A stretch of DNA of 64,000 bases from Nitzschia sp. pyKryTriq1 (taxonomy: Eukaryota > Bacillariophyta > Bacillariophyceae > Bacillariales > Bacillariaceae), in contig OY101115.1 in assembly GCA_956465555.1 (NCBI GenBank), positions 4,254,120 to 4,318,119 on the forward strand, given 5' to 3'. The translations under genes were made by a program, and so were the position numbers. This document shows positions 739 to 63,732 of this stretch, one piece after another (position 1 is the stretch's first letter; every line of letters begins with the position of its first letter). Below the pieces are notes generated by a model. The model searched no databases, had not been told where the DNA came from, and saw only the letters and a list, made by a program, of their open reading frames with translations.

Positions 739-2464
739 ATGACCATGACCGCCACTTCCGATCGTCACGAAGAGTCTGCTCTAGGCAGCGGAGACGCAAG
801 TCCCTCTTCTTTTACCAAGGTAAGACCAACCAGAGACTCTGGAGGTGAGGATTGGTTATTCTGTTTAGTTTCAGCGCCTGTTGTGCTAACGTGAATGCAC
901 ATCATATTATTTTTATTCTCGTCGAAAGATCTTCAACAAGTCGACACAGTACACCGAGGAGGCGATTCAAACGTTCGAACACACCTTCGGCAAGCATTAC
1001 ATGTCGGCGGGAGGAGAAGCCATGACGGGTTTGATGATGGGAGCCTTGCAGGCACCCAAGGGCTGCTCCATGCTCGACATTGGCTTTGGCATCGGCGGTG
1101 CCGCTTATGCATTTGCCGAGACCTTGGATGCGACAGTCCGTGGGATCGATGTCGGTGTTCAAGGATGCGAATTGGCCAAGGCGGAGCTAGTTCGACGCAA
1201 CGAGGAACGTGTGGCCGCTGGACTCACTCCACTTAAAATTACTTTTGAGCTGGAAGACTGCACCCAGGCTGATTACGCGCCAGAATCGTTCGATGTTATT
1301 TATTCGCGAGACACTTTTGTTCATTTGTCTGCCGAGAGCAAGGAAAAGGTATTTGCCAACTGTTTCAAATGGCTCAAGCCGGGTGGAAAGATCTGCATCG
1401 CCGACTATTCCCTCGGACGCAATTCCGACGCGTCGGGACAACCGACGCCAGCATTTGCCCAGTATTTGCAGGCTCGAGACTACCATATGTACACTGCTAA
1501 GCAATATTCGGTGGCCCTGGAAACACCGGGATTCACCGATGTCAATGCGAGAGATATGGCGCATTGGTACTGTGTCACCTGCCAGACCGAATTGGATCGA
1601 GTAGCCCAACCTGGACCCAGTCGCGAAAAGTGTCTGGAAGAACAGGGAGCAGAACAAGTGGCCAAGCTGGAGCAAACCTACGAAAACAAAATTCAAATGA
1701 CCTTGCGGGGAGATCGTTCTTATGTTTTGATTACAGGTGTCAAGGCTGATGGTGAGGCTGAATCGTCGGCGTCGCTCCAAAAAGAAGTCCAAGAAGCCTA
1801 TCTGAAGCTTTACAACAAAGGATGGGTCATGAGTTGCGACGGAAACTTGTCGGCACGGGTGGCTCCAGGATCGCCTGACTTTTTCGTGACACCCACGGGC
1901 ATTGATGCTACCCAGATTGAACCCTCACAAATTGTTCGTTGCAATGGCAACGGCAAGACCGATGGTGCTATCAAACCGACTTCGGAAGTGGATTTGCACA
2001 CTTTGATTTATCAATCTCGTCCTGATGTGGGCGCTGTGGTGCATTCGCATTCTATTTATGCTTGTGCCCTTGCTTGTTGCCGCATTCCCCTTCCCCCCGC
2101 CCACTATGCCGTCTGCGAACTCTTGTGCAGCCCCACCAGCAGCTGCGCCGTTAACGACCAGGAGGGCGCCGCGGCGGTTCAGTGTGGAAGCTACCACACA
2201 TACGGAACCTTCGAGCTGGCCACTGCCACCTTGGCCGCTTTGGGCCAAAATTATGCCTGTTTCATGGCCAACCATGGAGCCGTCGTCGTTGGAAAGGATC
2301 TTGCTGAAGCCATGTACTTGACTGAACGATTGGAACGAGAATGTGAAATCTACTGGAGGGCCAAGCAGTTGGCCCGCCCCATTCCTTTGACATCGGAAGA
2401 AATTACCAGCCTCGCGTTGAGGGATAAAACGTACGGCCAAAACCCAGAGGAAGAATCCTCGTAG
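739..2464 (+). CDS. Phosphoethanolamine N-methyltransferase-like / class II aldolase fusion protein
   Basis: Two exons, 739-819 and 929-2464, joined in phase 0 across a GT-AG intron, give 538 residues. Residues about 28-300 resemble phosphoethanolamine N-methyltransferase (SAM-dependent triple methylation to phosphocholine). The N-terminal QYTEEA segment, SAM motif I LDIGFGIGG near residue 75, IYSRDTFVHLS and FKWLKPGGK are all present. The Tyr of QYT and the His of VHLS match the catalytic Tyr-His dyad known in the Plasmodium enzyme. Residues about 312-520 form a class II aldolase/adducin domain with its metal site: Glu of TSEVD (about 379), HSHS (about 397-400) and NHG (about 474). This fold covers fuculose-phosphate aldolase and methylthioribulose-phosphate dehydratase types; the substrate is unknown. 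No signal peptide is seen, so it is probably cytosolic. The fused architecture is unusual; the methyltransferase substrate is inferred from family resemblance. Confidence 0.88.
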
Positions 2465-2741
2465 ATACATACGTCAAAGCTTACGAAAAACAACCTGCTA
2501 GGGCCATAAATCCCCCAAGAGCCTTGTTTGGAATGTTGTTGTTGATACACATTCTTGTGGACCGTCGATGGATTTTGGAACACCAATGAATAAAATAAAT
2601 GTGCCGTTGTCGTTTGGGACTGAAAGTACGACGTTATCACTTGCAGGAGAAAAGAGTGCGGAAAGAGGAAGAGTACAATACCAATACTGTACGAGTCCTA
2701 CTGGCGTCTAGAGTAGTTTCGAGTTATATACATCTTGCAGA

Positions 2742-5700
2742 CTACTGACGATAGGCTCTTCCGTCATGTGTCGACTCGAGCGGAAAGCCAGCCTGAGCCA
2801 AATGTTGGATCAAACGACTTTCAAATCGACGGGAATCCGATTTCGAGGGTACTGGCAACACAACTGCAGTGCAGCTAGACCAGGCCGGGCCCTTACTGCG
2901 GTGGCTTTGTAAACGTTGAAACAGAGAGTCCGTTTCACCAACATAATAACGAGGTGGATTGCATCCCAACTCCAACAAATAGACGCACGATTTATTGGCA
3001 AACGTGGGCGGAGGATTAGCCTTTGGTGGGATGGTAGTTGAAGGTTGACCGAGCATTTCTTCTGCTAGAGCCACTGCTTTCTGAAAGCCATAATGGTCCT
3101 GTGTGATTATACTGTTGATTCTAGTAACAAGTTCCTTGGCATCTTCGGGAGTCACAGTGTGGTGGGAGAGATACTGATCTAGTTCGTCGGCTCTCTCAAT
3201 GATCTCATCGGGAAGACCAAAACGTGCAGCGGTCACCATGGCCAATGAATCGTTGCAGACGCCATCTTCCAAACGATAGGTCCACTCGTAGGAATTGCTT
3301 GCAGATCTTGTAATAGCCATTTGTTTAGTGATAATGCGTTCTTTCGCCTTCAGCGGCAAATTCAAGATATCGTGCAGATGAGTAGCGAAGATGCCACTCA
3401 TCCCACGGCTGGCCATGGCCTCAAGAATAGCAGCGGCCAGTCGAGCACCATCACGAGGAGAGGTTCCTCGTCCAATTTCGTCCACAAATACAAGTGATCT
3501 AGGGCCGCAGCAGCGCATGAGTGCCGCGATATCTTCCATTTCGGCTCCAAACGCACTTTTGTTCTCGGCAGGGACGTCGGCTGAAGCTCCCCGTAGAAAC
3601 AGGGTATCAAAGCGAGGAATACGAGATCCTTCCATCAACGGAGCACACAAACCACAGACGGTTAAGAGCGCGGCAGCAGCTGTAGAACGCATAATCGTAG
3701 ACTTTCCACTCATGTTTGGGGCTGTTAGAAGAAACATGCCATCCAAATCAAAGGTATTCGGTACCGCCTGCGATTGAGGCATCCAGTACGGCCAAAGCCC
3801 TACGAGCTTGGCCGAGGCACCCGTAGTGCCATCGATATTGGTGCTTTCTGGGTCCAGTGTTTCCGCCAGATGCCAATTATTCTTGATAGCCTTGACGGCA
3901 TGGTGATAGGCGGCCGACAAAGCCAGATTCAAATGTGCCGATTGGATAATTGCTGGAATGTGGCCGTCGTCTTGCAACGTCTTGGCTAAAGTAGACAAGA
4001 TTGACGATACTTCTTCGCAAGCTTTGTCACAGGCCACAACGTACTCTGATAGAGCCTGCTGCACATCTTCTGTGGTGTAACGGGTGTTGAGTTTCTTGCC
4101 GTGCCGATCCCTTGGGATAATGTAATCCTTTGCATTCCCAGAAGTTGGGACTTTCTTGAGTACCAGCAAATTATTGAAAATATCTTGTGCAATCAGCACT
4201 CGGTTGCTCTCATCGCCCTTTACGAAATCCCGAGCGATGACTTCATCAAGATGTCGCCCCGCTTCTTCCACTCGTCGGTACACCTGCTCTGCGACTTCTC
4301 GCTGAACCCGACCTCGCCAAGGAAGTTCGTTCCGTTCTACAAACCCATCTGGAAGATACTTGTAGTGTGTCAATGGGTCCTCCAGAGAGAAATGCAAAGA
4401 TGCAGCATTGTCTTGAAACACGAGCAACTCATCGTCGACATGATGTGAAGGGCAGATGACGGCTTCAATCGTGTCCATAGCCTGCTGACACCGCACCAGC
4501 AACGATTCTCGGTCGGCAACCAAGCCGCTTTCATGGGAACACAATGTCAGAAGCGCGTCTATGGGCAGGTCATGGTGATGATGATGATTTTGCGACACCA
4601 CAAACCGAGTCACTGCGAGCGTGTGTAAGAGTTCTCCATAGATGGCCGCACTCGCTTGACCGGCCCGAATCAGACTCAAAACTTTTCCCAAGGGTGGAAC
4701 CGTCAACCGGGGCAACACCATATTGTTGTCTTCATCCCTCAGTGACTGGACAACCTCGGACATCGCTCGTGCCACTTTGGGTGGAGGTGGCACCAACAAG
4801 TAACGCTTCAAAAATCGTCGAGTTGCTGCAGGTGCAGCCTCGTCCAACACATGAAAAATTAATGAGGGAATGGCAGGATCTTGGAGCAAACCCAGCTGGC
4901 TCGCTGTTTCCAAATACAATGGATTGGTATGGGCTGACGATTGAGAAACGGTAAAGTCCTTTGGGCTCGGTCTTTGTTCTGGAATACAGCCACCCGGCTT
5001 TCGACTTGAGGAAGTTAAATCGTGGCGCTCTTCGTCATGCCGTTTTTCATTCCAGTGAAGTAAGGTATCCACAATGACAGAAATATATCGTTCGGATTCG
5101 GATCCATCCGTGTTGGGAATCAAATGAGGTGGCAGCACGATGGTACGGACTCGAAAGCCACCCAAATGAGCTTCTACTAATTCTCGCTCTGCCGTCGTGC
5201 TGGGCTGGGAAGGATGAGGCAAAAACGGCAAGGAAATCGACTTGGTGGAAGATGATGATGATTCGGTAGGAGAAGGAATATACACCAATGGTTCCGCAGG
5301 AGGATATGCGGCCAATCGACAAGCCACCGCCTCTGGAGTCAATCGTTCCGAATACTCCACCGACCGCTCTTCCAAAGAGACCTCCATCATGTGATACCCC
5401 GCTGCCGTGTGAACAATTCCCACACATGGACGGGATGGTGGTAGCTGATCCAATGCAGAACCACTTTCATGCTCTGAGCCCAGCAACCAATTGTGGTCAT
5501 ACAGATATGTGGGCGATGCCGGTGAGACGATTTGCGACAAAACCCTCGTTTTGAGTTTGTTGGACGCTGTTTGACCGACTTCTTCGTAGACGGCGACGCT
5601 GAAGCCTTGTTCTGTAAGTCCATTCAGAGTCGCCTGTACATTGCGATAAGGACATCCTGCCTTGACTTTGCCTCCCATTGGATTCAACCCAACATGTTCG

Positions 5701-6782
5701 ACTAGCAGAATCGCATCCACCCCAAACGTTTCATAGAAATCACCCATTCTCGTCAAAATCACACACTGGGGATATAATCGTTTTTGTTCTCGACAAAATG
5801 CCAAGAAACTTCCCTTTTTGCCAGCAGCTGTGGGTGTAGTAACTACAGCTCTTTTCTTGGGCGAAGCTGTCGGATCAAAGCCCATGGGACATTCGGTGGA
5901 ATCGAGTTGTTTCAAGAGATCACGTGCGACCGGTCTTGAGATCTGTTTCAAGGGATCTCGCCAATAGTCATCCAATTTGGATCCTGGTCGGTCAAAGAGT
6001 GAATCCACGATTTGCTCATGTGTCGGTTGATGATCTTTCCTGCTGGTAGCACTAGTTGTGCTAATTCTAGTAGTAGGGACCAGCATTGTTGGATCATCCT
6101 CGTCCAATGATTCTTCTTCATCATCATCATCATCATCATCATCGAGTTGCTGCTGTTCCTCCTGCTGTATCTGGCTTTCTTGTTGTTTGATTAAGGATCG
6201 GCAGTGCAAAATAAGATGCGCTAATTGCCGTTTATCGGGTGGAATTTCTTCATCGGTCATGGCCTGTTGCAGCGCCGACTTGGCCGTGGATTGGTTCGGC
6301 CGTCCAAAAATCGCCATGGAAACTTGTTTCGGGCTTTGGACATTGATAGGAGTGCCGTCATTGCATTGAGTGATTCGTTCTTGCAGTGCTTCAATAATAC
6401 TATCGTTGCTATAGTTGCCAGAAGACTGATCATCATCTTCTTTTTCTTCGCCACCACCGTCCACATGCCCAACATACGATTGAAGCACCGAAACGAAGGA
6501 AAACTGCCGACGCCGATCGACCAGATCGATTCTTTGCAAATGCAAATGACAGTGGGTACGATGATGATGACTTGCTGTTCTCGTTGTCGTTGTTGTGGAG
6601 CATGGGGCAGAAGAAGAAAAGGCACGGACCGCCAAAGTCGGCTGACGATGCCGAGAAAATGCTGCTGCTAGCAGAAGGCACGACGACGCCATGAGAATAT
6701 AAAGAATTACCGGTATTGGAGACAAACTAGCAGCAACCGAATTTCTTCTTCTTCTTCTCCGTTTCGTGTGTGGCACTCTCAT
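2742..6782 (-). CDS. MSH1: MSH1-type organellar MutS homologue with C-terminal GIY-YIG nuclease domain
   Basis: Single exon, 1346 residues from the first ATG (6782); the open frame runs slightly further only through a TTG. The N-terminus has a basic stretch, then a hydrophobic run ending LLAAAF near residue 42, which resembles a diatom signal peptide with the Ala-Phe plastid-import site. An Asp/Glu-rich low-complexity tract follows. MutS domain I carries the mismatch-reading motif GDFYETFG near residue 348. The ATPase has Walker A TAPNMSGKST near 1023 and Walker B LVFVDEIGRG near 1097. The C-terminal ~85 residues form a GIY-YIG domain (VYLLEL ... YYVGET). MutS plus GIY-YIG is the hallmark of MSH1, which suppresses mutation and recombination in plant organelles and has also been reported outside plants. 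Plastid targeting is inferred. Convergent with the fusion gene. Confidence 0.93.
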   Translation of the reverse strand: MRVPHTKRRRRRRNSVAASLSPIPVILYILMASSCLLLAAAFSRHRQPTLAVRAFSSSAPCSTTTTTRTASHHHRTHCHLHLQRIDLVDRRRQFSFVSVLQSYVGHVDGGGEEKEDDDQSSGNYSNDSIIEALQERITQCNDGTPINVQSPKQVSMAIFGRPNQSTAKSALQQAMTDEEIPPDKRQLAHLILHCRSLIKQQESQIQQEEQQQLDDDDDDDDEEESLDEDDPTMLVPTTRISTTSATSRKDHQPTHEQIVDSLFDRPGSKLDDYWRDPLKQISRPVARDLLKQLDSTECPMGFDPTASPKKRAVVTTPTAAGKKGSFLAFCREQKRLYPQCVILTRMGDFYETFGVDAILLVEHVGLNPMGGKVKAGCPYRNVQATLNGLTEQGFSVAVYEEVGQTASNKLKTRVLSQIVSPASPTYLYDHNWLLGSEHESGSALDQLPPSRPCVGIVHTAAGYHMMEVSLEERSVEYSERLTPEAVACRLAAYPPAEPLVYIPSPTESSSSSTKSISLPFLPHPSQPSTTAERELVEAHLGGFRVRTIVLPPHLIPNTDGSESERYISVIVDTLLHWNEKRHDEERHDLTSSSRKPGGCIPEQRPSPKDFTVSQSSAHTNPLYLETASQLGLLQDPAIPSLIFHVLDEAAPAATRRFLKRYLLVPPPPKVARAMSEVVQSLRDEDNNMVLPRLTVPPLGKVLSLIRAGQASAAIYGELLHTLAVTRFVVSQNHHHHHDLPIDALLTLCSHESGLVADRESLLVRCQQAMDTIEAVICPSHHVDDELLVFQDNAASLHFSLEDPLTHYKYLPDGFVERNELPWRGRVQREVAEQVYRRVEEAGRHLDEVIARDFVKGDESNRVLIAQDIFNNLLVLKKVPTSGNAKDYIIPRDRHGKKLNTRYTTEDVQQALSEYVVACDKACEEVSSILSTLAKTLQDDGHIPAIIQSAHLNLALSAAYHHAVKAIKNNWHLAETLDPESTNIDGTTGASAKLVGLWPYWMPQSQAVPNTFDLDGMFLLTAPNMSGKSTIMRSTAAAALLTVCGLCAPLMEGSRIPRFDTLFLRGASADVPAENKSAFGAEMEDIAALMRCCGPRSLVFVDEIGRGTSPRDGARLAAAILEAMASRGMSGIFATHLHDILNLPLKAKERIITKQMAITRSASNSYEWTYRLEDGVCNDSLAMVTAARFGLPDEIIERADELDQYLSHHTVTPEDAKELVTRINSIITQDHYGFQKAVALAEEMLGQPSTTIPPKANPPPTFANKSCVYLLELGCNPPRYYVGETDSLFQRLQSHRSKGPAWSSCTAVVLPVPSKSDSRRFESRLIQHLAQAGFPLESTHDGRAYRQ

Positions 6783-7662
6783 GAATGAATGAATCAATCA
6801 ATCAATCAATCAATCAATTACAGCAAGTCAATCTGGCTACCAGTATGAAGCAGTACTTGTACATTACTGTACTTGCACCGGTACTCGTACAAGTAGCCAA
6901 GCGTGGAAAGAATGATCGTGGGTTGTAATACCGGTACGGTGGATAATGGTGTGGGTGTTGGGTGTGGGCGAGAGAACAATCCAAGATTCCCAAGCTACGC
7001 CTCGGTCAGTGCAAGGTAATGCAAATTGGGTATGTATATATTGGTACGGGATGCTTGGTTGGTATCGTATGTATAAAGGTAAATTGAGAGCGCGCCTGGC
7101 TTGAACACATACATTACTTAGATGTATATTTTAAAGTATACAGTATGAAATAAATAATGAGACCTAACTTGCATCAATTGCATGACCTTGGCCAGTGTGC
7201 GGTACATGAGGTCCCCAGCCGCCGGCATAGTACTGGTACCAGGTACGAAACGCCGGACCTCTCGCCCACGATGACCCTTGAGATGATCGTTAATTGCTGA
7301 CTTCAATCCGGCACTGTTAGTCCGGGAAAAGAACAAGGGCCATTTCATATAATACATAATATATTATAGGTTTTAACCGACTTTGGTGGTACTGTACAGT
7401 ACCATGGCCAAAAGTGCCGGAACTGTACCCCTGGTACCAGAGCTAGGTACAGGTACCAGTACGGTACCTGGTACTGCTGCTGGTACCGTAGGTTTATCGT
7501 ACTTGTACCAGGTACCGGTGCAATACCAGGTACCAGGTACCAGGTACGGCCCGCCCCGACGTAGTACTGTTCTCTTCTTGTAGGGCTCACGCAGCACTTT
7601 GGGCCTCAAAAATATACGGTAGTGCGGTAGTCTTCTACTGTACCTGGTACTGTTCAGGAAAA
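6783..7662. other. Spacer with ATTG microsatellite and GTAC-rich sequence
   Basis: Immediately upstream of the MSH1 start is a short TCAA/ATTG tetranucleotide run (about 6789-6820). GTAC-rich patches occur at about 6840-6950 and 7225-7250, before the dense island at 7381-7560. No coding region is supported. Confidence 0.6.
7381..7560. repeat. GTAC island 2 (very dense)
   Basis: I count 17 copies of GTAC in these 180 bp, against less than one expected by chance. Many sit in GGTACC or GTACCAGGTACC contexts. Both strands are open for about 200 bp here, but the peptides are low-complexity and I treat them as by-products of the repeat. Confidence 0.9.
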
Positions 7663-7980
7663 ATGGACGGCTATGATATTGTACCGGTATGTTCTACGCG
7701 AGTACAATTCGCTAAAATGATTTTGAGTGGTGAAGCGATGCCCACCGTAGAACATGGTATGATTTCTACGTGTCGCGACACTACCTACAGTACTTCAACG
7801 CAGAACCCATACCTTGCCTTCTCTTCACTATTACATTGTACTACTAATGATGACGACTCAGATGTCTTGCCCCCTCTCCAGTTTGTACATACGTACGTGG
7901 AGAAGAGAAAAGATCTGGCGATGAGCATGTTCTTGCAACAAGCCCAAGAGACTTCGCCTTGCTATGCTCTGGTAGAGTAG
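7663..7980 (+). CDS. Doubtful small ORF, 105 residues
   Basis: Begins with ATG just after a GTAC patch and ends in a GTAG/CTAC cluster. The protein has no recognised domain, signal peptide or membrane segment; the middle is Asp-rich and the C-terminal part is helical in character (VEKRKDLAMSMFLQQAQ). It could be an exon of a diatom-specific gene or a chance frame. No splice partners are obvious. Confidence 0.22.
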   Translation: MDGYDIVPVCSTRVQFAKMILSGEAMPTVEHGMISTCRDTTYSTSTQNPYLAFSSLLHCTTNDDDSDVLPPLQFVHTYVEKRKDLAMSMFLQQAQETSPCYALVE

Positions 7981-8355
7981 CTCTACAGTATTACTCTACT
8001 ACTCTACCACTAGAGAGTAGACGAGCGAAAAGGTGTGGTCGCCTTCGATGAGGCCAGTACTGTAGATGGAGGAGCGGGGTGGTCTTGCTCAAGCAGAGGA
8101 GGCGTGCTGCACATGGTGATTTCAATATATATTTAATAATACTACTATGTTATGAAGAAACTGCTATTACAATATGACCGTACTTGATAATGATCATGAA
8201 GGTGGTGTCTACTCGTCCTGGACGAAGAGTGGCAGCAGAATGTCCATCCTCATGATCATACTGAGAATCGGCACAAACACTGGAGGGATAGTTCCTCGTA
8301 GGCAGTAGGGCAATTGTTGTCTTTTCTTGGGCCACCCGGGCACATTGTTTGTTCT

Positions 8356-8787
8356 TTACCTGCCATTACTCTTAACGCTAGGAACTGGCGGAACGGTAGG
8401 AGCCTTGGTACTCTTGACGGAGACGGCAGGAGCCTTGGTGCTCTTGACGGAGACGGCAGGAGCCTTGGTGCTCTTGACGGAGACGGCAGGAGCCTTGGTG
8501 CTCTTGACGGAGACGGCAGGAGCCTTGGTGCTCTTGACGGTAGGAGCCTTGGTGCTCTTGACGGTGGGAGCCTTGGTGCTCTTGACGGTAGGAGCCTTGG
8601 TGCTCTTGACGGTGGGAGCCTTGAACTTGGGTACCTGCAGCAAACGTTCCTCACCGGCAGCACCACGAGCACCGAACACGCGAGAGCTCCTGATGGATGC
8701 TTGGACTTGCTCGTCGTCGTCAGACAAAGATGAAACCACAAGAACCAAGAACGCTGCGGCAAGAGCAAGAGGGAAAGAAAGTTTCAT
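8356..8787 (-). CDS. Secreted Lys-Ser-Thr-Lys-Ala-Pro repeat protein
   Basis: 143 residues starting at the ATG at 8787, chosen because a clear signal peptide begins there (MKLSFPLALAAAFLVLVVSS); upstream codons are only an Ile run. After an acidic spacer and an Arg/Gly-rich stretch comes a repeat array: four units of KSTKAPTV followed by four of KSTKAPAVSV and a short tail. The protein is very rich in Lys, Thr, Ser, Pro and Ala. The K-S-T-K spacing fits the KXXK pattern seen in silaffin-like silica-associated proteins, where lysines carry polyamines, but Pro-Thr-rich wall or adhesive proteins are equally possible. Function unknown. The last codons read AGG-TAA inside a splice-donor-like AGGTAAAG, so a further 3' exon cannot be excluded. 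Confidence 0.7.
   Translation of the reverse strand: MKLSFPLALAAAFLVLVVSSLSDDDEQVQASIRSSRVFGARGAAGEERLLQVPKFKAPTVKSTKAPTVKSTKAPTVKSTKAPTVKSTKAPAVSVKSTKAPAVSVKSTKAPAVSVKSTKAPAVSVKSTKAPTVPPVPSVKSNGR
8393..8625 (-). repeat. Coding tandem repeat, 24-bp and 30-bp units
   Basis: Nearly identical 30-bp units (four) followed by 24-bp units (four) on the plus strand encode the Lys/Thr/Pro repeats on the minus strand. The 30-bp unit equals the 24-bp unit plus two codons (Ser-Val). Because both lengths are multiples of three, the opposite strand is also open here. The near identity indicates recent slippage or unequal exchange. Confidence 0.9.
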
Positions 8788-60925: not shown

Positions 60926-62152
60926 ATGGCAGAATTAGTATGCACCTTCCATCCCCCCAAACTTGAATCATGGCTGTACGTGGTCGCCTGCCACGGGGCG
61001 TACTGTGTGGGCGGCGGTGTCCCGATTGGTCTGTGGGCGTATTATGTGGGACGTCGGAGACCTCGATGTTGCGTTGGGCTAGCCATGGTGGTCGCGCTAT
61101 CCATTCCCCTCTATCTTCACCACTCTTATCGAGGCAGCAGCAGTGGTGAAGCAATCGATCCTCTGCCGTCGCCGGTCGTCTGGGTTGGGCATTTTTTGGG
61201 AAGTACCTTTGGATTTTCTACCGCTTTCAAGCTGTGGAATGTGGCGTATCAACAATTTCCCGAAGGAGCCGACGCTTCTCTTCAAATATTCTTGGCATGG
61301 TTTTTGATTCTACCGGAACCGCAATTTGTCAAGGGCAAGACACGAACGCTATCTAGAGATGAGATCCAGGAACACTTGTCGGGCGTATTGTACAAGATTG
61401 TCGGGATATTTGTGTTGCTGAGCATGTTGACTACTCCTGCAACAACAACACGGGAGGTGGTGGCAGGGTCGGAAACTAATAGTGATACTGCAAAGGCGCA
61501 GAATGGTGGGTGGTCGTCGATACTGGCATGGATTTTGCAAATCTTACCTACCAAAGGAGACAGCTTGGTGGAAGAAGCGTGGAATGGATGGCTTCATTTA
61601 TGGTGGCTCTATACATGGGTCTCTTTTTGGTTAGAAGCCTCGGTCCTTGTGACCATGCCCATTACAGGCTTCCAAGCTATGGAGCCCGCGTTTCGAAATC
61701 CGCTTCTCGAATCCAGATCGTTTCAAGAAGTCTGGGGGACGCGATGGAATTTGCCGATCCAAGCTTTGCTACAACGAACTGCCTACGTTCCTTTGCGCAA
61801 ACAAGGATACAGCCGAACTATTGCCGCAGTTGGGACGTTTGTCGTATCGGGGATCCTTCACGAATACAACTTTTGGACGCACAATTTTGCGGCCTACCGT
61901 CAACCTGGCATTGCAACCTTGTTCTTCGTCGCGATGGGCTTCCTTATGTTGGTCGAGAGTAAGATCTGGGCCATGCTCGTACCAGCGCCATTGCGAGCTC
62001 TCATTCAGAAACACGTTCCGTCATTCCTGGTCTCCTTTGGGCTCATCATGTTATCCGCCATTCCCGTGGAGCGATATTTTATCAAGAGTTGGTTGGAAGC
62101 TGGTATGATCGAAGCCTCTTCCCAGCTTTTCCCTCACGTCACCTGCCGGTAG
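60926..62152 (+). CDS. Wax-synthase/MBOAT-type membrane acyltransferase
   Basis: Single exon, 408 residues, with about eight hydrophobic segments. The conserved wax-synthase block is present: PLLESRSFQEVWGTRWNLPIQALLQRTAYVPLR, then GTFVVSGILHEYNFW, whose His is the likely catalytic residue of MBOAT enzymes. The N-terminal helices (WLYVVACHGAYCVGGGVPIGLWAYY) and the last ones (FLVSFGLIMLSAI) complete the fold. This family transfers an acyl chain from acyl-CoA to a fatty alcohol, sterol or diacylglycerol in the ER; the acceptor cannot be told. Length is normal for plant-type wax synthases (about 340-400). Convergent with the F-box-like gene, 134 bp between stops. Confidence 0.85.
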   Translation: MAELVCTFHPPKLESWLYVVACHGAYCVGGGVPIGLWAYYVGRRRPRCCVGLAMVVALSIPLYLHHSYRGSSSGEAIDPLPSPVVWVGHFLGSTFGFSTAFKLWNVAYQQFPEGADASLQIFLAWFLILPEPQFVKGKTRTLSRDEIQEHLSGVLYKIVGIFVLLSMLTTPATTTREVVAGSETNSDTAKAQNGGWSSILAWILQILPTKGDSLVEEAWNGWLHLWWLYTWVSFWLEASVLVTMPITGFQAMEPAFRNPLLESRSFQEVWGTRWNLPIQALLQRTAYVPLRKQGYSRTIAAVGTFVVSGILHEYNFWTHNFAAYRQPGIATLFFVAMGFLMLVESKIWAMLVPAPLRALIQKHVPSFLVSFGLIMLSAIPVERYFIKSWLEAGMIEASSQLFPHVTCR

Positions 62153-62286
62153 TAGTAAATGTCGTTTGGTGATTTGCCGCTAAAGAATCCAACTACGAGC
62201 ACAACAAGACTTTCGCAGTCGTCGTGCTTATTTAAAATAAACAAATGCTAGCTACCGTATACGCAAGTCCACGGTTTTCTTATACA

Positions 62287-63732
62287 TCATCCGAGATACT
62301 CATTCGAAATGGTGACCAGCGGATGCTCCACTGTCATGGGACGATTCTTGTAGCATTCATTTGCGAGTACCATCATCCATCCTGACACGGCATCTGGTGC
62401 CGGATCTGGATGAAACCCGGGCTCTTCCTCATCCAATGTCCTACTACTAGTAATCCAAGGGGGTATCGTGAACCAAATGTGAAAACGTTCATTGTTGGCG
62501 ATAAAATGCCGCCCTTCTTCTAAAAGTTGCCACGTGGGAGAAATAGCAAAATGGGGACTTTGGAATCGCAGCAAAATCATTGGTGGAATCATCACATCCG
62601 TTTGGACTCGATCACGTCCTCGAAAGGCTGGACCGAGTGGACCGAATTGATGATATCGAGTCTCAATGACAAACGTCTCCCGTTGTTCTCGTTGCCCCTC
62701 ATCCGATCTTTCCACCAACCTCCTCTCGTTTTGCAGGCTGACAAGATCGCTCACAACCCGAGTGATTTCATCAACCACCGATGTACCCGTCGCCAAAAAG
62801 CAATAGTGGGGGTGTATGTATTCGACATTTTGTGGCTCTGTCCGACCAAGTATTCCATGAAGAGGCGACACCAATTTGTACAACGCCAATTGTCGGCGTG
62901 TCATGGGAAATGTTCTCAAAAGTGTAGAGTGTAGAAAGACCCACCGTCGATACCAGTGAACCGGGCCCTCGTCCTTGTGTAAAGGATCTATTAAGTCTTG
63001 AGTCCATGTATAGTGATTCGTCTTACCCTCTACGATACCGGCTACCGAGTGAGCCATCAAGAAGTAGGCAATCAGAACGTCACCAATGTAATTTTCCAGT
63101 GTTGTAGTGACGGAAAGAGGCGCGTTGGCAGCAAAGCCACGATCAGCCAATGGAGGATGACACTCGACAGTCGAATTCGCTAGCAACCGTTCATGAATTC
63201 GATGCGCTTTGGATACCGACTGCAGCTCCTGTAGACACGCTTGGAAATTGTTGGTGGAGATTCCTTGTTCAGATATCAGTTGTAGATCCTCTTGCTGCAA
63301 ATCCAGCAAGAGCCATCGCACGTCATCATTGGAGGGATGAGACATGGGAAGGGCTCTGTACAAAGCCTGTATTCTTTCGACGATCGACGGCAACACATGC
63401 CATTGATTCTTGTCGCCGTTGATTGGTTGTAGGAGAACGTCGACATTCTTTTCCGTATCGATGGTCCTGCTGGACGACGACATCGACAGGGTTGGAATCT
63501 CTCGCACTGGCACTACGCGAGAAGGTTCCGAGAGCTGATACGCATGGCGGAATAAGAATTGTCGAGCGCGACGCCGCTTCAAGTGAGGCAAAATGTCTCG
63601 CAATAGCCCTTGTCGGGAAACCTGAGAGTACCGAAGACAGTCTCGCAGAGGCAAATACTCGAGCACATGGTTGCGAGTATCCGGCGAAAGGGCGGCAAGA
63701 GGCGAGGCCATCATCATCATCATCATCATCAT
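62287..63732 (-). CDS. F-box-like protein, function unknown
   Basis: 481 residues from the first of eight consecutive ATG codons at 63732 (the frame before is TTG); any of these could be used. After the Met run comes ASPLAALSPDTRNHVLEYLPLRDCLRYSQVSRQGLLRDILPHL, which has the Leu-Pro-Leu-hydrophobic-Cys pattern of an F-box. The remaining ~430 residues have no recognised motif; they mix helices and strands with Trp/Pro-rich segments (WYRRWVFLHSTLLRTF, WQLLEEGRHFIANNERFHIWFTIPPW). If a true F-box, it would dock with SKP1, also encoded in this window. A GATG microsatellite produces the Met run. Confidence 0.72.
   Translation of the reverse strand: MMMMMMMMASPLAALSPDTRNHVLEYLPLRDCLRYSQVSRQGLLRDILPHLKRRRARQFLFRHAYQLSEPSRVVPVREIPTLSMSSSSRTIDTEKNVDVLLQPINGDKNQWHVLPSIVERIQALYRALPMSHPSNDDVRWLLLDLQQEDLQLISEQGISTNNFQACLQELQSVSKAHRIHERLLANSTVECHPPLADRGFAANAPLSVTTTLENYIGDVLIAYFLMAHSVAGIVEGKTNHYTWTQDLIDPLHKDEGPVHWYRRWVFLHSTLLRTFPMTRRQLALYKLVSPLHGILGRTEPQNVEYIHPHYCFLATGTSVVDEITRVVSDLVSLQNERRLVERSDEGQREQRETFVIETRYHQFGPLGPAFRGRDRVQTDVMIPPMILLRFQSPHFAISPTWQLLEEGRHFIANNERFHIWFTIPPWITSSRTLDEEEPGFHPDPAPDAVSGWMMVLANECYKNRPMTVEHPLVTISNEYLG

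Follow-up and report, generated by a model that had tools for sequence, protein, structure and literature searches.

A spliced diatom gene predicted to join a phosphobase methyltransferase and a ketose-1-phosphate aldolase in a single chain

A frame close to the start of the analysed stretch of diatom DNA (64,000 nucleotides, hereafter the window) raises the question of whether a single gene encodes two complete enzymes and, if so, which reactions the two would carry out in one chain. The gene consists of two exons on the forward strand: exon 1 (739-819), which has 27 codons and the ATG start at 739, and exon 2 (929-2464), which has codons 28-538 plus the stop and contains both domains. They are separated by a 109-base intron (820-928) of the GT...AG type, and the spliced product (739-819 joined to 929-2464, forward strand) comprises 538 amino acids. 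Exon 2 lies within an uninterrupted frame of 524 codons that holds both domains; since no methionine precedes the catalytic Tyr35 in this unspliced frame, an upstream exon is required. The coordinates and the 819/929 splice given in the original prediction are correct, with the ATG, the intron borders and the stop all in place. No organelle-targeting signal was seen in exon 1 by eye. Pfam analysis of the same frame revealed Methyltransf_11 (E 3.4e-15) and Aldolase_II (E 7.1e-45), both above the curated cut-offs. Residues ~28-285 form a phosphoethanolamine methyltransferase (PMT)-type domain and residues ~312-538 a class II aldolase domain, which puts the boundary, anticipated near residue 300, at ~285-312.

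A second copy of the gene sits on contig C3, in a surrounding stretch of 99.3% identical DNA, and its fusion frame is also open. The coding sequences on C1 (the contig of the window) and C3 have eight differences without any indel, leading to three amino acid changes (G18R, A202P and N436K), and their introns differ by one substitution and a 2-base deletion that leave the splice sites intact. Given the single open frame in both genomic copies, we reject two separate genes and assign the methyltransferase and aldolase halves to a single spliced diatom gene. As the two copies are nearly identical, their kept frame and sites are weak evidence of selection. Near-identical matching points were found at C1:4140195/C3:3004618 and C1:4315119/C3:3177328, in the paired regions G000:C1:4140195-4316619 and G000:C3:3004618-3178828, between which the window start and window positions 61000-62500 lie. 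A comparison of these matching points and of ~10 kb around the gene suggests that C1 and C3 have a block of ~176 kb or more in common; the pair may be either haplotypes or a true (segmental) duplication.

Several features of the neighbourhood and the genome were recorded alongside. Upstream of the fusion gene, positions 1-560 are filled with dense, GTAC-rich imperfect repeats (GTACAGTACC and similar, by eye). The minus-strand neighbour (2742-6797) encodes a MutS family protein with MutS_I and MutS_V matches; by eye its C-terminus is GIY-YIG-like, presumably as in MSH1. Silicon transporters gave eight matches in the genome, seven of them above 870 bits and the best at 885, in support of its diatom origin. 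A 663-codon frame with two methyltransferase domains (G000:C6:209938-211056) is possibly a double methyltransferase of the glycine-betaine type.

The PMT-type domain is encoded at 938-1729 (+) and matches AtPMT2 (PDB 5wp5) with an E-value of 4e-41 over exon-2 residues 4-267. The closest of its solved relatives are plant PMT2 (E 4e-41) and PMT1 (E 1.3e-38), followed by the Plasmodium PMTs; identity to plant PMT2 is 33.8% over 263 amino acids (E 3e-45). AlphaFold modelled this half confidently, with all ten-residue blocks across residues 11-270 scoring 84 or higher. Structural similarity search of the model against the PDB using Foldseek placed PMTs at all of ranks 1-21 among the 50 matches listed. 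TM-scores, taken by target, reached 0.88-0.92 with the Plasmodium chains and 0.49-0.57 with the larger chains from plants and nematodes. Tyr35 (codon 950-952, +) and His159 (codon 1322-1324, +) align with Tyr19 and His132, the dyad of Plasmodium PMT, for which Y19F and H132A mutant structures exist. Of the eight positions that, as we take it, make up the catalytic and phosphobase site in Plasmodium PMT, the diatom domain retains every one (Y35, D155, H159, Y187, Y206, R210, Y212 and K281), and PDB titles of the mutants Y19F, H132A and D128A back three of them.

As a control, the same positions were read in bacterial homologues of the methyltransferase half, namely the best 80 of 345 relatives, drawn from at least 592 pattern matches. 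Six of the 80 loci had no plus-strand match and were omitted from the count. Among the 74 used, two have all eight residues and 72 have four or fewer. Two bacterial metagenome-assembled genomes encode stand-alone PMTs with all eight residues (L033:1145-1906 and L040:4965-5732), which are rare among these 74 homologues. By its sequence and modelled fold, we classify the N-terminal half as a PMT-family methyltransferase that depends on SAM and has kept its phosphobase site intact. It resembles the known PMTs (the C-terminal half of plant PMT1 and PMT2, Plasmodium PMT and nematode PMT-2) in sequence, predicted fold, Tyr-His dyad and phosphobase site; however, the solved PMTs among the matches listed are, by name and size (245-491 residues), methyltransferases alone, whereas the diatom protein carries an aldolase too.

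The genome (40.65 Mb in 20 contigs) was searched exon by exon, in a manner that could overlook a second PMT, or a fucose isomerase, whose gene is split into many pieces. The plant PMT2 query found the two fusion copies at 132 bits, and the next 15 matches scored 52 bits or less; the fusion is the sole PMT-type domain found in this exon-by-exon search. For the alternative route of phosphatidylethanolamine methylation, the PF04191 profile gave seven matches in the genome. Inspected by eye, five of these loci look ICMT-like, NnrU-like or of another kind, and L025 is a twin of L024; the C-terminus of L028 resembles, in our estimation, PEMT/PLMT. In Nitzschia laevis a PMT transcript is named, and the excerpted text of that source (PMC8401676) gives no domain layout for it and makes no mention of an aldolase.

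The Aldolase_II domain (PF00596) is encoded at 1784-2356 (+), and the FucA-like similarity extends beyond it to Tyr529 near the C-terminus. The best PDB matches of this half are FucA enzymes (4c24, E 5.9e-30). Glu380 (codon 1985-1987, +) aligns with the catalytic Glu73 of E. coli FucA, the His399-Ser-His401 stretch (2042-2050, +) with His92 and His94, and His476 (codon 2273-2275, +) with His155. When compared to the 13 residues that we take to form the E. coli FucA active site, the diatom domain (G332, N333, T350, G351, T378, S379, E380, H399, H401, Y420, Y452, H476 and Y529) is identical at 11, and the other two are conservative replacements (Ser-to-Thr and Phe-to-Tyr). At the Glu position, by contrast, the control domains of the same genome have Cys (its own MtnB) and Ala (an adducin-like domain on contig C4). 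The Tyr-His dyad, the Glu, the His-x-His pair and the third His named in the original prediction are all present, and its claim that one chain holds two active sites, both apparently complete, is borne out residue by residue, with support from the fold for the methyltransferase half alone. Modelled by itself, the aldolase half reached a mean pLDDT of 37.5 because few relatives could be aligned; it yielded no confident fold, and the model was left unused.

The aldolase half scores below the curated cut-offs of all 25 NCBIfam families among the matches listed, including PRK06833 (129.2 bits against 264, the best family), fucA (98.3 against 400.25) and salvage_mtnB (67.9 against 137.05), and it retains the FucA-type Glu. 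As the scores are so far under the cut-offs, it should not be named an L-fuculose-phosphate aldolase. Compared to its FucA relatives (E. coli FucA, S. pneumoniae 4c24 and NCBIfam PRK06833), with which it has the 11 identical and two conservative residues in common, the diatom domain differs in its ~30-37% identity to the closer ones, in its fusion to a methyltransferase and in an insertion of ~15 residues after Tyr420. This insertion is absent from six aligned aldolases and could alter the aldehyde pocket. The residue pattern identifies the C-terminal half, on sequence grounds, as a FucA-type class II aldolase with metal, phosphate and catalytic residues intact. The original prediction had allowed for either cleavage or dehydration of a sugar phosphate; cleavage fits the FucA-type residues, whereas dehydration is less supported, since the residues follow the FucA-type aldolase pattern and the MtnB dehydratase of this genome differs at the Glu position. 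The same residues bear on the idea that the aldolase half, like adducin, has no catalytic role and serves as a module for oligomerisation. Adducins have the same fold, appear among the PDB matches and are, to our knowledge, not known as enzymes; nevertheless, the diatom domain has kept its metal ligands, Glu, phosphate site and C-terminal Tyr, where the adducin-like domain on C4 has Ala in place of the Glu, and we regard such a role as very improbable.

Another two-domain methyltransferase fusion, DsyGD, combines the DsyG methyltransferase with a decarboxylase of family PF04115; a 2024 account calls it the sole enzyme known to decarboxylate DMSHB (PMC11306096, in excerpt). Its two-part logic is similar, and the diatom gene might be taken for an algal counterpart that unites an MTHB S-methyltransferase with a DMSHB decarboxylase. 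We compared it to L132, a cyanobacterial DsyGD-like protein of 510 amino acids (PF08241 at 91-190, PF04115 at 321-473), the layout of which is close to that of published DsyGD and which was named by this architecture rather than against the published sequence. The methyltransferase half aligns with the DsyG half of L132 at 28% over 145 amino acids (E 8e-10), as against 33.8% over 263 for plant PMT2, and the DsyG half has two of the eight phosphobase residues and a much better relative elsewhere in the diatom genome (36% over 267 amino acids). Moreover, the methyltransferase half of DsyGD is of the DsyG type, and its second domain is PF04115; that of the fusion gene is PF00596 with a FucA phosphate site. 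The reading as a DMSP enzyme fails after this comparison, and we give it next to no credence.

The better relative of the DsyG half belongs to a locus on contig C4 (G000:C4:801200-809900, L020) with two divergent frames, at 1412-5143 (-) and 7554-8453 (+) of the locus. One is a DsyG/DSYE-like methyltransferase of 299 amino acids, which matches the L132 DsyG half at 36% over 267 amino acids (E 9e-55). The other, of 1243 amino acids, contains a DsyG-like methyltransferase (30% over 217 amino acids), a D-2-hydroxyacid dehydrogenase and, as a further domain, a class II aldolase whose best solved relatives are adducin (E 1.1e-24), with the decarboxylase NovR (E 2.1e-11) ranking before E. coli FucA (~E 2e-5). 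For the first ~430 residues of this frame, Pfam gave nothing at E 0.01 and the PDB nothing below E 0.7; a reading of this part by eye as an amino-acid dehydrogenase was dropped, as neither of the two supported it. Larger TpMMT-like diatom proteins with extra domains of unknown function are mentioned in excerpts of PMC10989797, and by analogy the 1243-residue frame may be one of them. From its layout, the pair may carry out three steps of DMSP synthesis (keto-acid reduction, S-methylation and decarboxylation), with the adducin/NovR-like aldolase domain as the candidate decarboxylase. It is a candidate gene pair for DMSP synthesis and a candidate locus in which to seek the DMSHB decarboxylase that is still missing from algae.

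Which sugar phosphate the aldolase half of the fusion protein would cleave was approached through its possible partners in the genome. No match to PF02952 (Fucose_iso_C) was found in the exon-by-exon search, which covered the C-terminal domain of fucose isomerase alone; fucose catabolism is disfavoured, as this partner is missing from the search. MtnA is encoded (376.8 bits against a cut-off of 279), and so is an MtnB-MtnC fusion (G000:C4:1914597-1916465; L018:1174-3042). The MtnC half of the latter scores 209 bits against a cut-off of 128.1. Its MtnB half falls into two pieces of 103 and 87 bits that flank an in-frame TGA, each below the cut-off of 137, which applies to a whole protein; as the MtnB profile continues across the TGA, this codon probably lies within a small intron. 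With MtnA and MtnB-MtnC present, methylthioribulose-1-phosphate should be made, and it is a possible substrate of the aldolase half. The MtnB-MtnC and DEP1 fusions likewise join a eukaryotic class II aldolase-fold domain to another enzyme; however, theirs is a dehydratase that lacks the FucA Glu and is joined to a phosphatase, and the diatom genome has one separately.

Bacterial aldolases that cleave methylthioribulose-1-phosphate or 5-deoxyribulose-1-phosphate are described in excerpts of PMC5893883 and PMC6079011; one, Ald2, leads in vivo to 2-(methylthio)ethanol (PMC5893883), and another, DrdA, is a tetramer (PMC6079011). DrdA and Ald2 belong to the same fold family as the diatom domain, and the operon-borne aldolases L030 and L169 carry the same key residues. 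Among 18 aldolases compared from the prokaryote and phage collections, the highest-scoring lies inside an mtnK-mtnA-aldolase operon. In three of 17 contexts mtnA stands beside the aldolase, a count from hand-picked loci that gives no rate; contexts L172-L175 lack annotation and were read by tblastn alone. In the aldolase tree, which took in no DrdA or Ald2 of known activity and in which the row L174 is a frame of 409 residues whose start may lie too far upstream, the diatom domain sits on a long branch, unplaced and not grouped with the operon-borne aldolases.

Taken together, we lean slightly towards a predicted bifunctional enzyme, in which a phosphobase methyltransferase and an aldolase that releases dihydroxyacetone phosphate (DHAP) from a ketose-1-phosphate are encoded by one spliced diatom gene. 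The N-terminal half would methylate phosphoethanolamine or its methylated forms, with SAM as donor, to give phosphocholine on the way to the membrane lipid phosphatidylcholine, a role assigned to it because it is the sole PMT-type domain found in the genome. The C-terminal half would cleave, in a metal-dependent manner, a ketose-1-phosphate into DHAP and an aldehyde. Its substrate would most plausibly be 5-methylthio- or 5-deoxyribulose-1-phosphate from the salvage of SAM by-products, given that no fucose isomerase match was found and that the makers of methylthioribulose-1-phosphate are present. By analogy with the tetrameric DrdA, the aldolase half may, in addition, bring four methyltransferases together.

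The same data could be read as an unlinked housekeeping fusion, in which a PMT that makes phosphocholine and an aldolase that acts on a ketose-1-phosphate in general sugar metabolism have a chain in common for expression or assembly and no pathway in common. Each active site is ordinary for its own family, and in none of the best 80 of 345 bacterial methyltransferase loci, the true PMTs L033 and L040 included, is the gene flanked by an aldolase, so this sample gives no sign of natural coupling; no aldolase, mtnK or mtnA match was found there at E 1e-5, with some flanks being short. Both complete sites are kept in both genomic copies, which speaks against an unlinked fusion, though as little evidence, since the copies are nearly identical. 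We hold this explanation to be unlikely but deserving of real weight.

The fusion itself was also sought elsewhere. Searches by tblastn matched 751 plasmid and 18 phage records, none of which covered 80% of the query in one place, and viral contigs gave either no match or weak single-domain matches, with none of five viral loci having both domains. The better of two plasmid matches to the methyltransferase half, in Fuscovulum ytuae (L031:1507-4759), stands beside a DMSP-lyase-family protein and an amidohydrolase and by eye lacks some of the PMT phosphobase residues. A fusion of a methyltransferase to a class II aldolase is unreported in the openly licensed papers searched, as far as their excerpts go, and excerpts of a methionine-salvage review contain none. 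The gene may well be already modelled, without comment, in diatom databases.

Returning to the predicted bifunctional enzyme, a more specific coupling of its two halves would turn methylthioadenosine into the sulfonium head group of phosphatidylsulfocholine, and possibly also supply dimethylsulfonioacetate. The aldolase half would cleave 5-methylthioribulose-1-phosphate to DHAP and 2-methylthioacetaldehyde, as in the bacterial Ald2 reaction. The aldehyde would then be reduced and phosphorylated to methylthioethyl phosphate, a thioether counterpart of N-methylphosphoethanolamine. S-methylation of this compound by the PMT half would yield phosphosulfocholine, which forms the phosphatidylsulfocholine head group, or a precursor of dimethylsulfonioacetate. 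Phosphatidylsulfocholine is reported from five diatoms, with its sulfur derived from methionine, cysteine and cystine (PMC4483651, in excerpt), and dimethylsulfonioacetate was measured in five of eight diatom species but not detected in the other three (PMC7221440, in excerpt). The 2-(methylthio)ethanol that Ald2 yields in bacteria, the makers of methylthioribulose-1-phosphate in this genome and the intact phosphobase site are also consistent with such a route. Against this, it requires a reductase and a kinase between the steps of the two domains, no residue discriminates S- from N-methylation, and the aldolase tree leaves the diatom domain unplaced; moreover, ordinary phosphocholine synthesis accounts for the methyltransferase half as the sole PMT-type candidate. 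We consider the sulfonium route improbable on balance. No gene for phosphatidylsulfocholine is named in the excerpts of PMC4483651 and PMC12442346, the latter of which equates this lipid with choline-O-sulfate, in mismatch with the sulfonium structure. A reading in terms of the betaine lipid DGCC was dropped, as the titles of the papers listed gave no lead.

Both enzyme families are known, but their union is absent from the papers and the collections searched, none of which holds eukaryote genomes. As the sole PMT-type enzyme found in this diatom, the fusion protein bears on the synthesis of choline lipids in diatoms. If the two steps were linked, phosphatidylsulfocholine, the sulfonium lipid of diatoms, would have a gene assigned to it, a question that is directly testable.
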